From a virus, in IMG/VR virus record IMGVR_UViG_3300046009_013442, positions 1-25,922 of that record: a DNA stretch of 25,922 nt; one strand, 5' to 3'. The translations under genes were made by a program, and so were the position numbers. Of the stretch, positions 3,398-23,747 are shown in pieces. The notes under the pieces are model-generated. The model saw only the letters and a list, made by a program, of their open reading frames with translations. It did not search any database and was not told the origin of the DNA. Numbering within the stretch: the first letter of the stretch is position 1; each line of letters begins with the position of its first letter.

Positions 3398-3904
3398 TTA
3401 AGAAGATGCAACGATATATTCTAATTGTATTGAACCAGAATATGATGTATTTGAATCCCCAGCTTTAGCTTTAATAAGATTCATATACACAAAATCTGTG
3501 TAATATTGTTCGTCAACATAACCTTCTACAACATAATCACCTGTTTGTGAAGCATTAAAATCATCATTACTTAGCATTAATGATTTACCAGCATCTAATT
3601 TAAAAATAACAGATTCACTATTAGTTTTAATTAAATAAATACTAGCAAAATAATTACTACTAGGTAAATTAGTAATTCTAATGTATTTTACAGCTGAATT
3701 AACAAAAGAACCAGGGGTTTGTTCAGATTCACTATTTGTAAATGCTATAATTCCTATACCAGATCCTGAGTAATCATAAGTAACTGTATCTATTCTTCTA
3801 ACAAATTGATTAACATCCGGTATAATAACCGTATTAATTGCAGTTTCTACATTATTGTTAGGTAATGTTATTTGTTCTTGAATAGAAACAGTAAGGTTTG
3901 ACAT
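3398..3904 (-). CDS. Small beta-rich virion-type protein, unidentified
   Basis: 168 aa, starting MSNLTVSIQEQITLPNN. There is no signal peptide, membrane segment or catalytic motif. The composition is strand-forming (alternating I/V/Y/S/T) with a Gly-Ser patch (DYSGSGIGIIAF), which suggests a beta-sandwich. It is expressed from a motif of its own (3916-3924) and followed at 17 nt by the fibre gene. A fibre-associated or capsid decoration subunit is the natural guess from context, but I do not recognise a named family. Confidence 0.6.
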   Translation of the reverse strand: MSNLTVSIQEQITLPNNNVETAINTVIIPDVNQFVRRIDTVTYDYSGSGIGIIAFTNSESEQTPGSFVNSAVKYIRITNLPSSNYFASIYLIKTNSESVIFKLDAGKSLMLSNDDFNASQTGDYVVEGYVDEQYYTDFVYMNLIKAKAGDSNTSYSGSIQLEYIVASS

Positions 3905-19210: not shown

Positions 19211-19739
19211 ACAAAGAAAGCGCCTCTTTGACCTGTTTGATACGTTCAGTATTTGAGCCTGAGATGATATGGAGATGTTGGATTCGATATTTGTTAGAAT
19301 TAATAAGATGGTTGATTATAAAATCAATCAAATTACGATATTCAGGATCTGTTTCGCGCACACCATTATTTTCTACTTCTACACCTTCAGGAGAAACATA
19401 AAAAATATGATCGTATTCTGAAATAAGATTACTGGCGAAGTCGATAAATGCATCTTTATCAATGTAATCCATTGTTTTAGATGCCTTAGCAAATGCCATT
19501 ACATCAATCACAGTGCGATCTGTGATAATGTTTTCTTGCATTAACTCACCGGCACGTTCAGCTAAGAACACAATTTGTCCTTTAAGTGTTGAATCAGTGT
19601 TCAATGGAATACCTAACCCCATTAAATACTTTGAACGTTCTGTTCTGAAAGTATAATCTTTAAATTCAGGTAATTCTTTTAACGCATTAACAAGCGTTGT
19701 TTTACCTACTGACATAGTGCCACAAAATCCTATCTTCAT
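19209..19739 (-). CDS. NadR/AAA_28-like P-loop kinase
   Basis: 176 aa from the ATG at 19739, which overlaps the TGA of the upstream gene (ATGA). The P-loop is GTMSVGKTT (7-15) at the very N-terminus. A TERSKYL segment (39-45) and NIITDRTVIDVMAFAKA (70s-80s, LID/DR-type motif) follow, then HIFYVSPEGVEVENNGVRE and a terminal HIISGSNTERIKQV. This is the layout of the AAA_28 group that includes the ribosylnicotinamide kinase domain of NadR and nucleoside/nucleotide kinases. It probably phosphorylates a nucleoside-like substrate, which may be for NAD salvage or nucleotide metabolism, but the substrate cannot be read from sequence. It is last in a metabolic unit with the cupin-methyltransferase fusion and the flavoenzyme. 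Confidence 0.75.
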   Translation of the reverse strand: MKIGFCGTMSVGKTTLVNALKELPEFKDYTFRTERSKYLMGLGIPLNTDSTLKGQIVFLAERAGELMQENIITDRTVIDVMAFAKASKTMDYIDKDAFIDFASNLISEYDHIFYVSPEGVEVENNGVRETDPEYRNLIDFIINHLINSNKYRIQHLHIISGSNTERIKQVKEALSL

Positions 19740-20812
19740 GATTTCCAAAAATACATAAAAGTTTGTATGGAGCCAAGTTTAACATGAAAATTAAAACCAT
19801 GTTGGTGAATAGTTTTAATGAACTCTGTTCGAGCTTCTTCACTATATCCAAACACATCTTCATGATATTCAATAAAGATTTTATCAATTTTAGCCCAAGT
19901 TTCAGGACTTATCCCATGTATTGCTTCTTTTTCTCCACCTTCAATATCCATTTTTAGGTAGTTTATCTTTTCAATATTGTGTTTTTTTACAATATCATCT
20001 AGAGTAGTACAGCGGATAATTCTTTTAGCTTGCCAATTAGGCCATATACTAATCTCCATAAAGCTATTTTTATCCGAAATAGCAATTTGTTCTAAAGTCC
20101 AATTGGTACCTGCATTTTTCTTTAAAGCTTCAAAAATATCAGGATCAGGTTCAATAGCATAGATTTGTGACGCTCCTTTAGATTCAGCATAAGCACAATT
20201 CATTCCTACATTAGACCCTAAATCTACATAAACGTCACCAGGTTCAACTGTGAAAAATTCATTGTCAAGTTCTTTATGTATAATGTTAGCCCAGTACATA
20301 CAGGCCTCCCACCCATACTTTACCTCAGCTTCATTCTGGGGGGTAGTTGATAGATCTTCAAAAAGGGTAAAATCAACTAATTTGTCGTTTAAAGACCAAA
20401 ATTGAGTTAAATCTCTACCTTTAAATTGAGTTTTAAAAGTGTCTCCTTTAAATACTCTGTAACTGTCTTCCTCATAGTGTTTTGTAGATACCTCAAAAAT
20501 TGTAGCACCTTCAGTAAGTGCTTTTAATTGGTGGGGTTGTCCTATTTCTAGATCTACAACATCTCCTTGACGAATTACAGTTGATTGTACTTCAGCTTTT
20601 TCGGTATCAATCCAACTGTATTCAAATTCTCCTTCAGCTACATACCATGATTCTTCTTTAATCAAATGGTAGTGCATTGAAAATTTTTTACCTTTCTCAA
20701 ATACAAGTAGTTTACCACAATATAAATCATGGTTTATAATCCAAAGCTCGTGTCCCCAAGCTTTCTTATGAATATCTCCTTTACGAGGGATTGGTTGATA
20801 TTTGTGTCCCAT
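19736..20812 (-). CDS. Cupin-FkbM methyltransferase fusion
   Basis: 358 aa with two domains. The N-terminal cupin (about 20-120) is of the mannose-6-phosphate isomerase-like type: GKKFSMHYHLIKEESWYV carries metal-binding H47/H49 and E53, and IGQPHQLKA carries H94. The C-terminal FkbM-family methyltransferase (about 165-355) has SAM motif YVDLGSNVGMN (195-205), the acidic EPDPD (221-225) and KMDIEGGEKEAIHG (287-300). FkbM enzymes methylate sugar or polyketide hydroxyls; sugar-nucleotide cupins act in glycan synthesis, so the fusion could modify a surface glycan, but the target is inferred. It overlaps the small upstream gene (TAATG) and the downstream kinase (ATGA), so it is translationally coupled. 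Confidence 0.85.
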   Translation of the reverse strand: MGHKYQPIPRKGDIHKKAWGHELWIINHDLYCGKLLVFEKGKKFSMHYHLIKEESWYVAEGEFEYSWIDTEKAEVQSTVIRQGDVVDLEIGQPHQLKALTEGATIFEVSTKHYEEDSYRVFKGDTFKTQFKGRDLTQFWSLNDKLVDFTLFEDLSTTPQNEAEVKYGWEACMYWANIIHKELDNEFFTVEPGDVYVDLGSNVGMNCAYAESKGASQIYAIEPDPDIFEALKKNAGTNWTLEQIAISDKNSFMEISIWPNWQAKRIIRCTTLDDIVKKHNIEKINYLKMDIEGGEKEAIHGISPETWAKIDKIFIEYHEDVFGYSEEARTEFIKTIHQHGFNFHVKLGSIQTFMYFWKS

Positions 20813-21081
20813 TAGAATCGTGTTGTTCCTCGCATTGAAGGATTTTTATACCAAGGTAAACCTTCTCTGTCTTTACGAGCTTGAGTCCAATCTTGTTCAG
20901 CTAATTCTAAACCATATAGATAATAGGCTTTTTTTAATGTACTATCATCTTCAATAGGTTCAATAGCTGGGCCATCCCAGTTGTGCATTTTCCAACTTTC
21001 TTGTCCTTGTTCTTTAAACAAATGGATTAATGCTCCTTGTGATCTAATAGTTTTAGTTTCAAATACTTTTTCTTTACTCAT
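20812..21081 (-). CDS. Small conserved phage protein, function unknown
   Basis: 89 aa. The pattern HNWDGPAIEP followed by KKAYYLYGLELAEQDWTQARKDREGLPWYKNP is one I recall in small proteins of large T4-type phages, usually of unknown role. The Tyr-Gly repeat has a MORN-like flavour but is too short to call. No membrane segment. Its ATG overlaps the stop of the flavoenzyme C-terminal half (ATGA), and its TAA overlaps the ATG of the cupin-methyltransferase gene (TAATG), so it belongs to the same metabolic unit. Confidence 0.6.
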   Translation of the reverse strand: MSKEKVFETKTIRSQGALIHLFKEQGQESWKMHNWDGPAIEPIEDDSTLKKAYYLYGLELAEQDWTQARKDREGLPWYKNPSMRGTTRF

Positions 21082-21902
21082 ACTGCATAGTGGCTTAAAA
21101 ATTCCGGATATTCGGTATCGCGAAGGTAATAAGAAAGAATGTTCTCGGCAACATATATTGCTTGAGCTCCTGAAACTGTTATGCCTCTAGCTGATAAAGC
21201 ATCACCTACAAAGTGTACATTGGGGAACTTGGTAAGAGACAAGTTGCGATAGTTTACAAGTGGTTCAGGTGAAAGATATTTTACCTCGGGAACGTAAATA
21301 CCCCAATCGTCTTGTAGGGTTGGGAATACTTTTTTCATATCCTCGATAAAGTCCATAATGTAGGTCCAATATTCACCCATTACATTCTCTACTCCGCTCA
21401 AATTATCAATTTGGAAAGCTGACACATCGTTGCCTTCAGAGGTTGATGATGGAATTCGAGTAGGTGAGTAATATAAACCAGTACCATTGAATTGAAGCTT
21501 GTTTACAACATCACGTGACCAAGCAAATGGATCTTCAATGCCATTGATTTCCATCAAGATACCAAAATTGGTCATCCCGTTTAGATATTTTGGATCTTTT
21601 TTAGCGTGGCCATTGTAGCTATGATCACCATATGTTTCTTCTACAGCAACATAAGCGGCATTGTTATTTGTACAGAATGAGCGAAGCGAAACACCTTTAT
21701 CGTCAAATTTTCTATACAACTTAAAGTCGTATGAAACGTCAATTAGTTTCTGGAAGTGTTTTTGTGGTGCCTCGAATCTTACGCCCAATTGCACACTCTT
21801 AACTTCAGTAGGTAAGTCATATTCCTTAGCTAATTTAGATGAAAAATCTATTCCTGATTTTCCGGTTCCTATAATACATTTGTCAAATTTTATTTTTCTC
21901 AT
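21078..21902 (-). CDS. C-terminal half of a split COG2509-like FAD-dependent dehydrogenase
   Basis: 274 aa from the ATG at 21902; an in-frame TTG at 21935 lies in insertion sequence and is not preferred. MRKIKFDKCIIGTGKSGIDF is the internal strand and GTG(K/R)SG motif found midway in COG2509-type flavoproteins. Next come LGVRFEAPQKHFQKLIDVSYD and, at the end, FVGDALSARGITVSGAQA, the second FAD-contacting motif that closes the nucleotide-binding fold. Alone it lacks the N-terminal GxGxxG, which is in the gene at 22415-22930. Between the halves lies a 518-nt insertion. Joining after codon GAT of the first half to AGA of the second gives a seamless reading frame. It may fold with the other half as a two-chain enzyme, or be dead. 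Confidence 0.8.
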   Translation of the reverse strand: MRKIKFDKCIIGTGKSGIDFSSKLAKEYDLPTEVKSVQLGVRFEAPQKHFQKLIDVSYDFKLYRKFDDKGVSLRSFCTNNNAAYVAVEETYGDHSYNGHAKKDPKYLNGMTNFGILMEINGIEDPFAWSRDVVNKLQFNGTGLYYSPTRIPSSTSEGNDVSAFQIDNLSGVENVMGEYWTYIMDFIEDMKKVFPTLQDDWGIYVPEVKYLSPEPLVNYRNLSLTKFPNVHFVGDALSARGITVSGAQAIYVAENILSYYLRDTEYPEFLSHYAV

Positions 21903-21903
21903 A

Positions 21904-21990
21904 TTACTTGTTTTTATATTCCCATTTATAACCAAATGCTGTTTTTATTTTCCCTTTACAAGCTAAATTTATACAACCATAAGAAAAAAT
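21904..21990 (-). pseudogene. Relic of a homing endonuclease C-terminus (NUMOD1-like)
   Basis: A 28-codon frame without a start codon, closed upstream by TAG (21991-21993) and downstream by TAA (21904-21906), reads INLACKGKIKTAFGYKWEY followed by KNK and stop. The pattern '(S/N)I-x-C-x-G-K-x-K-T-A-x-G-Y-x-W-x-Y' is the usual C-terminal DNA-binding motif of phage HNH homing endonucleases. It ends one base before the ATG of the flavoenzyme's C-terminal half. No HNH or GIY-YIG catalytic part remains. Confidence 0.75.
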
Positions 21991-22000
21991 CTAAGAAAAA

Positions 22001-22393
22001 TTAAATTCTTCCTTTTTCTCTAATACGTTCATTATCATCATTTACTATAATGTGACCCAGTATATCTTCTATTATAGCTGCTATTTTTTTTAAATCATCA
22101 TGAGCCTTTGGATTTTCAATACTTAAAAATCCATCATAATATATACCTTTAACTTGAAAAGCTTCAGCTTTAAATCCTTTCTCGTTTAATTTATTCGCTA
22201 TATTTTCTGCTTCAGAAAATTTTAAAGTTGATAATGAAATTGTTTTTCCATTATTAGTAACTCTAATTTGATGAGAGCGAACTGTTTCTCCATATGGAGT
22301 TATATCACCTATTTTATATTTTTCTAAATTTACTTCATTTAATACTTTATTAATTTCCTCTTTAATAATTTGTTTTAATTCAGATTTTTTCAT
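22001..22393 (-). CDS. Leader-bearing small protein inserted within the flavoenzyme locus
   Basis: 130 aa. The leader MKKSELKQIIKEEINKVLNE is a textbook amphipathic helix ending in LNE, the type I interpret as a prohead-targeting, protease-cleaved peptide. The remainder (about 110 aa) has TNNGKTISLSTLKFSEAEN, where the NGK and SEAENIANKLNEKGF elements suggest a small SPOR- or RRM-like alpha/beta domain, and ends with a helix and polar tail. I do not recognise the family. It is not an endonuclease. The gene has its own ATATTTAT motif (22408-22416) and lies with a homing-endonuclease relic inside the insertion that splits the flavoenzyme gene. Confidence 0.6.
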   Translation of the reverse strand: MKKSELKQIIKEEINKVLNEVNLEKYKIGDITPYGETVRSHQIRVTNNGKTISLSTLKFSEAENIANKLNEKGFKAEAFQVKGIYYDGFLSIENPKAHDDLKKIAAIIEDILGHIIVNDDNERIREKGRI

Positions 22394-22407
22394 AATTATA
22401 TTTTATT

Positions 22408-22416
22408 ATAAATATT
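22408..22416 (-). promoter_or_regulatory. ATATTTAT motif at the insertion boundary
   Basis: Coding strand AATATTTATAATAA lies 14 nt before the ATG at 22393. It overlaps the TAA stop (22415-22417) that truncates the flavoenzyme N-terminal half, so the insertion appears to have brought the motif with it. Confidence 0.5.
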
Positions 22417-22930
22417 AATCTTCCAATATTACTTCCCCAGTTTCAAAATTTATATTTTTGACTTTAGTTTCCCACTCAAATTTTACACCTTTAGACACTA
22501 AATAATCGTACCAGTTTTTAGCAATTTCAGATAAATAATCTGTACCTACGTGCCAAACTGGAAACAATCGTAAACCGAAGTATGGTTTGATAAAATCTGG
22601 TTCTGCTACTGGATTTGAACACTGTACTTCCTCTGGTTTAGGATGGAAACGTTTGAAATTGGTAATAACTTGATCCATCAACTGCATTGCTTTTTCTTCA
22701 CCACAATACTTAGACAATTGACCTCCAATTGCTGTGTGGTATGTTAGTTTACCATCAGACCAACCACCTGCACCCAAAAATCCTGTCATTACCTCTTCGG
22801 GTAAGCGGGTATATGGGTCTTTACCCATATCAATTATTGTGATCAGTTCACCTGGATAACCTTGGTCTACAAGCTTAGTAGCAGCATTTACTCCGGCTAC
22901 ACCTGCACCTACGATTACGATGTTTTTCAT
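22415..22930 (-). CDS. N-terminal half of a split COG2509-like FAD-dependent dehydrogenase
   Basis: 171 aa. The FAD-binding start MKNIVIVGAGVAGVNAATKL has GAGVAG at 8-13, and an acidic residue D34 follows at the second strand end. GAGGWSDGKLTYH (53-65) is the hallmark of the COG2509 group of uncharacterised FAD-dependent dehydrogenases. The sequence stops after KNINFETGEVILED, exactly where the intact family continues with a strand leading to the GTGRSG motif, which here begins the gene at 21078-21902. The stop codon is formed by the insertion. Upstream lie a terminator (22962-22997) and a variant motif (22950-22957). The substrate of the family is not known to me. Confidence 0.82.
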   Translation of the reverse strand: MKNIVIVGAGVAGVNAATKLVDQGYPGELITIIDMGKDPYTRLPEEVMTGFLGAGGWSDGKLTYHTAIGGQLSKYCGEEKAMQLMDQVITNFKRFHPKPEEVQCSNPVAEPDFIKPYFGLRLFPVWHVGTDYLSEIAKNWYDYLVSKGVKFEWETKVKNINFETGEVILED

Positions 22931-23034: not shown

Positions 23035-23295
23035 TCAGTCTAAATGTATTTTTAACTTAAGTGTTCCTGTGCCTTTTATGGCTCGGTGCCACATATGTCT
23101 TGGTATAAATATACGTTGATTTAAGGAGGTTGGCAAATTATTTTCTAATTGTATTTGCCAATCTGTTTCTCCTATTATTTCTATTGTACGATCTTCATCA
23201 TCACGATGCCAAAGGAGTTCGATGGGATCTATATTCTCATCGAACTCTCTTATAATGTATTGATCTGTGACTTCTAGATCTGTGTATGGGGTCAT
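23035..23295 (-). CDS. Small cupin-like protein
   Basis: 86 aa, a minimal single beta-barrel. The motif LLWHRDDEDRTIEII (27-41) and the later IFIPRHMWHRAIKGTGTLKLKI (62-83) are the two halves of a short cupin fold, with histidines H30, H67 and H70 as possible metal ligands. I recall the WHRDxEDR motif in small proteins of marine phages, where the function is not established. It is translationally coupled to the ADP-ribosyltransferase-like gene upstream (ATGA) and is the last gene before the terminator. Enzymatic or regulatory roles are both possible; it has no leader peptide of the type seen in its neighbours. Confidence 0.6.
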   Translation of the reverse strand: MTPYTDLEVTDQYIIREFDENIDPIELLWHRDDEDRTIEIIGETDWQIQLENNLPTSLNQRIFIPRHMWHRAIKGTGTLKLKIHLD

Positions 23296-23747
23296 TGGAT
23301 TTCGTAAGGTATATTTTTTTCTTGAATTTTTTTAATTAAAGAATCAAAGTATGTGTAAGAATATTCATCTTCATCATTTATTATAACTTTTATATTTGTT
23401 ATATAATTTATAGGAAGTCCATCTTTTTTAGTTATTATTTGTTCTTCAAATTCTAAACTTTCTTTCCCCATATGTCCAAAACTGTAAGGTTTAATTTGAA
23501 AATTATTAGAAATTTTATTTCCATCCAAATCTATTCGTACAATATTTTCATCTGGTTCTCCTTCTGAGTCAAATTCAGCTGTGTTTAGATTTTTATCTCT
23601 AGTAGCAGATACAACACCGTCTTCATTTGTTCTAATTTTTCCTGAGGTTAAAATTCCCATTGCCCCCCTTAGAGTGGTAAAATGATATAAAGTACCTACT
23701 TGTTTTCCTTCAGTAATTTCTTTTAATATGTCTAACAGTTTAATCAT
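23292..23747 (-). CDS. Probable ADP-ribosyltransferase-fold protein with cleavable leader
   Basis: 151 aa. The leader MIKLLDILKEITEGKQ contains ITE-G, a T4-type prohead protease site. Then LYHFTTLRGAMGILTSGKI (20-38) has the 'YH-T-x-A-x-x-I-L-x-x-G' motif of DarT/PARP-like ADP-ribosyltransferases, SATRD (47-51) the usual second strand, and LEFEEQIIT (98-106) the glutamate-containing third motif. T4 injects Alt, an ADP-ribosyltransferase carried in the capsid by such a leader, so an injected host-modifying enzyme is a reasonable analogy. The distances are short but plausible for a minimal ART. Loss of activity, or a non-ART relative, cannot be excluded. Neighbours are other leader-bearing genes. 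Confidence 0.6.
   Translation of the reverse strand: MIKLLDILKEITEGKQVGTLYHFTTLRGAMGILTSGKIRTNEDGVVSATRDKNLNTAEFDSEGEPDENIVRIDLDGNKISNNFQIKPYSFGHMGKESLEFEEQIITKKDGLPINYITNIKVIINDEDEYSYTYFDSLIKKIQEKNIPYEIQ

Follow-up and report, generated by a model that had tools for sequence, protein, structure and literature searches.

A GIY-YIG homing endonuclease cassette as the probable cause of a split flavoenzyme gene in T4-like phages

In the DNA analysed here, a 25,922-nucleotide (25.9-kb) IMG/VR fragment of a T4-like myovirus that is referred to below as the window, the gene for a flavoenzyme is divided into two ORFs by an insert (21900..22417, minus strand) of 518 nt, counted from the stop codon of the N-half to the start codon of the C-half, both included. 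The explanation that we favour, and hold with considerable confidence, is that a GIY-YIG element split the gene and spread as a patch, and that the window lost the endonuclease by deletion.

The window encodes the major capsid protein Gp23, the portal protein Gp20, a T4-type terminase, the prohead protease S77 and PhoH. Three bacterial-genome records with an intact flavoenzyme gene match were found and, since two of the three are Flavobacteriales/Flavobacteriaceae MAGs, the window likely belongs to a group of uncultured T4-like phages with flavobacterial hosts. No cultured model was found, as a DNA search among cultured phages returned no match, and the relatives recovered by a protein search, from Campylobacter phages and gut phage contigs, were no more than ~25-30% identical. 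Downstream of the flavoenzyme gene, positions 19736-20812 encode a cupin domain (phrog_7851 'cysteine dioxygenase', E 1e-35) fused to an FkbM methyltransferase domain.

A flavoenzyme gene in two halves

The N-half of the gene (22415..22930, minus strand) encodes 171 aa with an FAD-binding GxGxxG motif and terminates after FETGEVILED with a TAA codon at the insertion point, and the C-half (21078..21902, minus strand) encodes 274 aa that begin as M-RKIKFDKCIIGTGKSG from an ATG of its own. An earlier note on this DNA had proposed that one gene was split by an insertion, and alignment of both halves to intact homologues bears this out, in that the two are colinear with the first part and the rest of one continuous ORF, rather than being unrelated separate genes, in 137 loci from two collection scans; these include 91 distinct intact alleles, each of at least 380 aa. 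Junction patterns and protein searches revealed about 27 distinct alleles with a break at this one place, and the insert of the window recurs in two more contigs (L082/L160 and L175), which come from metagenomes 3300046010 and 3300046007. The identical insert in independent contigs, together with the recurrence of the split at one site, rules out an assembly artefact, and the split is real. The split alleles have conserved start and stop codons at the junction, and their C-halves open with a conserved ATG; this ATG and the ORFs within the insert rule out a programmed bypass or frameshift across the 518 nt.

Intact relatives have at the split point a loop of very variable length, differing by up to about 26 residues, that is followed by YDELIFAVGKSG. 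The earlier note had described the join as seamless, with no residue lost. The joined length does equal that of the shortest natural loops (for instance L051, L065, L092 and L112, with a gap of 0), but the stronger claim cannot be judged to the residue, because the loop is so variable and because both flanks of the insert arrived with it. An AlphaFold2 model of L112, one of the intact relatives, was built with 52 aligned sequences and has a mean pLDDT of 79 (about 90 at the split site); in it, the split point is the turn between strands 166-169 and 172-175. Given the variable loop length and this position between strands, the predicted insertion site is a beta-hairpin turn that is tolerant of change. 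The Pyr_redox_2 domain extends across the split point, and the top structural match of the model is the flavoprotein VP0956 (3nlc; Z 20.5, 352 residues, rmsd 6.3), which we take to be a COG2509 member. By the overall fold of the model, the enzyme is thus assigned as a COG2509-type FAD-dependent flavoprotein; a PDB sequence search gave nothing informative.

Contents of the insert

The insert opens with a conserved 5' edge, TAATATTTATAATAA (22403..22417, minus strand), in which the stop codon of the N-half is merged with a promoter-like motif. This motif is also present ahead of other genes in the window: exact copies of ATATTTATAATAA precede the genes starting at 3904, 11948, 14968 and 22393, at 6-14 nt before the start codons, and five of 13 near-matches fall in upstream zones that cover 5% of the window. 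The motif is probably a phage promoter element, and may in this role allow the cargo and the C-half to be transcribed.

The new gene that had been noted in the insert was confirmed as a passenger, or cargo, gene at 22001..22393 (minus strand), the 130-aa product of which has no clear family; a PADLOC search with the cargo found no match. The cargo proteins differ between phages, yet many share nearly the same ~20 N-terminal residues (MKKSEL..IIKEEI..VL.E), represented in the window by the first 20 cargo codons, MKKSELKQIIKEEINKVLNE (22334..22393, minus strand). This shared peptide, which is common to otherwise unrelated cargo proteins, ends in L-x-E, the cut pattern of the T4 prohead protease, and since the window also carries the S77 prohead protease gene, the peptide may be a head-targeting sequence and the cargo proteins may be packaged and ejected. 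A small gene elsewhere in the window (23292-23747), with the start MIKLLDILKEI, has a diverged relative among the cargo of another split locus, L163 (37% identity over ~100 residues).

The endonuclease of the split loci, complete in L164, L173, L181, L183, L189 and others, is a GIY-YIG enzyme with NUMOD3 and NUMOD1 that matches the PHROG 314 homing endonuclease (E 9e-19), and in many broken copies it ends just ahead of the start codon of the C-half. The window copy lacks a complete GIY-YIG domain and DNA-binding modules, with only the last codons left. Nucleotides 413-437 of the insert (21981..22005, minus strand) match the leader that precedes the intact endonuclease gene in L159, L164, L173, L181, L183 and L189, and nucleotides 438-518, with 97.5% DNA identity to L164, are the last 81 nt of the endonuclease region including the ATG of the C-half. 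The last codons and stop of the endonuclease lie at 21904..21980 (minus strand); read in a frame other than that of the cargo ORF, the insert ends in INLACKGKIKTAFGYKWEYKNK and a stop codon, the exact C-terminus of the intact homing endonuclease of relatives. Because the leader is directly followed by the tail, with the junction at 21981/21980, one internal deletion removed most of the gene. The homing-endonuclease relic suspected in the earlier note is therefore genuine, with ~25 nt of leader and the last ~80 nt kept and fused by the deletion, and different deletions of the same gene are found in L177 and L168.

Insert lengths across the split loci vary from 372 to about 1630 nt. The endonuclease alone is present in L181, cargo plus complete endonuclease in L164, L173, L183, L189 and L159, cargo plus a relic in L168, L177 and the window, and cargo with no endonuclease remnant in L165 and L162.

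Relatives of the endonuclease with 64% identity or more are located at this site, and more diverged relatives (58-66%) occur in L192 and L194, in stretches that lack the flavoenzyme gene. Other GIY-YIG endonucleases, of at least two types, are found in the same loop (L072/L074, L270 and L199). In addition, diverged GIY-YIG genes lie directly upstream of the flavoenzyme gene often, and downstream sometimes (L188, L197, L199, L213-L218, L220-L223, L227-L231, L238, L240, L241 and L246), and on account of these flanking genes the whole flavoenzyme locus is a homing hotspot. The L072 and L074 endonucleases are nearly identical in their C-terminal part and clearly diverged in roughly the first 240 nt, which likely reflects a recombination point inside the nuclease gene. 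A conserved ORF of 46-47 codons, starting MGRIKKYQTEDERILK and ending HEKKTKQ, overlaps the endonuclease start in another frame in L159, L164, L173, L181, L183 and L189. This ORF is the translated frame to judge from the overlap, where nine of the 11 variable sites are at its third positions. The GIY-YIG domain is in the +1 frame relative to this ORF and has no nearby start codon, an arrangement suggestive of frameshifting or an internal start as the means by which the domain is reached.

The transferred patch and its spread

The window locus is a mosaic. Nucleotides 1-481 of the N-half and 114-772 of the C-half match intact relatives, and the segment between them (~30 nt of the N-half, the insert and ~110 nt of the C-half) is of a type confined to split alleles. 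When the C-half is compared in 60-nt windows, its first ~110 nt show about 92-95% identity to the closest split allele versus 67-77% to the closest intact one, whereas past ~110 nt it is mostly 90-98% identical to intact alleles; the N-half is of the intact type until ~30 nt before its end. Within one segment, 30 of 32 informative sites are split-type, as opposed to none of the 91 outside it, a contrast that none of 200 permutations equalled. The innermost split-type markers place the transferred patch at 21795..22444 (minus strand; ~650 nt), running from nt 487 of the N-half across the insert to nt 108 of the C-half, with a 3' edge that depends on the panel, falling at nt 108-114 with 16 close intact relatives and extending up to nt 124 with another panel. 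The same switch between split and intact type is seen in five other split alleles (L168, L165, L169, L159 and L188). Consistent with this, a scan of 20 split and 88 intact alleles found an excess of between-group divergence of 0.18-0.28 in C-half nt 1-120 and 0.10-0.17 in the last ~45 nt of the N-half, versus 0.05 or less elsewhere, and an allele-by-allele table of best matches agrees. In a tree of whole C-halves the window falls among the intact alleles, with the other split alleles grouped together, a placement that is due to the mosaic structure.

The split-type segment recurs in many otherwise divergent phages, and on this evidence the mobile unit is best read as an endonuclease, variable cargo and a divergent stretch, equipped with its own start codon, that replaces the initial ~36 codons of the C-half. 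No unsplit allele carrying the split-type GTGK sequence came to light in a search for one. In one locus (L268:5275-5349), the first ~25 codons of a split-type C-half occur alone, fused to unrelated sequence and away from the flavoenzyme gene, and this fragment is possibly an ectopic scar of the cassette.

The events that we envisage would begin with a free-standing GIY-YIG homing endonuclease gene entering the beta-hairpin turn of a COG2509-type flavoenzyme gene, where the insertion would supply both the stop codon of the N-half and the start codon of the C-half, such that the enzyme came to consist of two chains, which probably pair with each other across the hairpin. Most likely the intact allele is cut by the endonuclease and repaired on the template of the split one, whereby a single patch would be copied that comprises the endonuclease, the cargo in front of it, the final ~30 nt of the N-half and the divergent first ~110 nt (~36 codons) of the C-half, and that extends as far as the nearest well-conserved DNA at C-half nt ~110-180. 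For T4-type endonucleases it is established that flanking markers are co-converted (PMC2988022). The divergent ~36 codons would keep the C-half translatable, and may also protect the new allele from being cut. The window later lost the endonuclease by internal deletion, with the cargo and both enzyme halves kept.

Homing endonucleases often ride in introns or inteins, and the earlier note had pointed to the T before and the G at the end of the insert as an exon-like boundary that would suit a group I intron. We nevertheless find it hardly credible that a single-chain enzyme is still made, whether by way of such an intron or of a split intein that joins the two halves ('fractured gene'). A search of the window and ten related split loci at the Rfam gathering threshold found no match and no group I or II intron, the only hit in the insert being a chance sRNA match (E 0.39), and by BLAST the window insert has no ribozyme-sized block in common with the other inserts, its matches being limited to the 5' edge, together with the beginning of the cargo gene, and to the leader and tail of the endonuclease. 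Given these results and the conserved ATG of the C-halves, the T/G boundary is most likely a product of chance; the join is no splice site, since the coding DNA on either side of it itself belongs to the patch that was transferred. A split intein was rejected, as no residues are added on either half: the N-half stops right after ILED and the C-half adds only Met, leaving no room for intein fragments. The earlier suggestion that an intron or endonuclease was replaced by cargo thus stands in part, the loss of the endonuclease with cargo kept being supported by the leader and tail relic, and the intron being unsupported in Rfam. It is also very improbable that the split copies are decaying pseudogenes of an enzyme no longer needed in these phages. 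One split C-half (L186) does have an in-frame stop, but the split halves are nearly all full-length, their start and stop codons at the junction have been conserved, and median dN/dS among split alleles is 0.167 for the N-half, 0.165 for C-half nt 1-110 and 0.155 for the rest of the C-half (0.13, 0.26 and 0.15, respectively, for intact alleles). The range of 0.155-0.167 takes in the cassette-borne region of the C-half, which has long been in the split state; the split cassettes differ strongly at synonymous sites (median divergence 0.475), which means that the transfers are for the most part not recent. Judging from these ratios, both halves are under purifying selection, which for the N-half and the distal C-half may be partly inherited from intact ancestors. 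The two-chain flavoenzyme that had been proposed from the window is probable, and the chains would probably assemble by likeness to Aeh1 NrdA, where two chains form an active enzyme (PMC2988022).

The closest rival accepts the same anatomy, but has the patch spreading by ordinary phage recombination with the endonuclease as a mere passenger; here, crossovers inside the patch would fail, either since split and intact sequences are too dissimilar or since the resulting halves do not work. The edge of the patch is at the nearest well-conserved DNA (C-half nt ~121-165), as ordinary recombination would have it, and its sharpness could come from recombination being unable to cross over inside dissimilar DNA. 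In addition, L165 and L162 carry the patch without any endonuclease remnant. Active homing, in contrast, fits the complete endonucleases found repeatedly at the site, the use of the same loop by two or more further GIY-YIG types (L072/L074/L270 and L199), and the many endonucleases that flank the intact gene. The data do not fully separate the two processes, but because intact endonucleases are found repeatedly at and around the site, spread by homing is preferred and ordinary recombination is judged unlikely.

Comparison with known systems

Gene breaks by homing endonucleases have so far been known from isolated examples. Here, one site is seen in many natural snapshots (intact, endonuclease without cargo, endonuclease plus cargo, relic plus cargo, and cargo only), from which a cycle and a moving patch can be read. 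On balance, although by a modest measure of confidence, we regard the element as one of a new layout, in which a homing endonuclease splits its host gene for good and brings with it a divergent beginning of the second half that is ready for translation. Each invasion would break the gene, supply a working part and protect the new copy, and the break would serve as a dock for swapped, possibly virion-packaged cargo. A literature search, which covered part of the literature, found no report of this combination of gene splitting and replacement sequence in phages. The locus offers a testable phage system in which a selfish nuclease fragments a conserved enzyme gene with no evident loss of function, and in which accessory genes are collected at such breaks.

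Among phages, the nearest precedents are the nrdA gene of Aeh1, split by mobE, the T4 topoisomerase gene, split by mobA, and the split gene 43 of Aeromonas phage 25 (PMC2988022). As with Aeh1 nrdA/mobE, a free-standing homing endonuclease divides a phage enzyme gene into two ORFs (PMC2988022): the gene is a single ORF in relatives, an endonuclease lies in the split (a relic in the window), and both fragments are conserved. Unlike these splits, the element described here is of the GIY-YIG type and is represented by many independent natural alleles that cover the whole cycle; cargo genes gather within the split, and the element brings along replacement coding sequence for the C-half. The HEG-islands of ICP1-like phages, in which homing endonucleases carry phage cargo genes and mark the boundaries of genetic exchange, are similar in linking an endonuclease with cargo and an exchange boundary, but they bracket whole genes, whereas here the element is within a gene and the patch edge is inside coding sequence (PMC10448857).

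Replacement coding sequence that is brought by an endonuclease ORF inserted within a gene is also a feature of the fungal mitochondrial mORFs in atp6, atp9, cox2 and nad3, which bring a foreign C-terminal coding part (PMC3630166). In the case of mORFs, however, the native C-terminus is displaced and often unexpressed, whereas here the replacement is limited to ~36 codons and the remainder of the native sequence forms a separate chain (PMC3630166). The yeast WHO elements at FBA1 likewise carry replacement coding sequence of their target, which here extends from C-half nt 1 to ~110, and each of their moves replaces part of the target coding sequence to give chimeric genes and nuclease resistance (PMC7282813). 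WHO elements are intein-derived and located downstream of an unbroken gene, with a displaced gene fragment left behind (PMC7282813), in contrast to the element described here, which has an unrelated GIY-YIG nuclease and resides inside a permanently split gene; at the window locus the C-half is continuous, with no displaced target fragment and no duplicate. A WHO element proper is ruled out by the different nuclease, the position in the gene and the lack of a displaced fragment. The likeness nonetheless suggests that phages, too, have elements with target-replacement coding sequence of the kind known from the yeast WHO elements.
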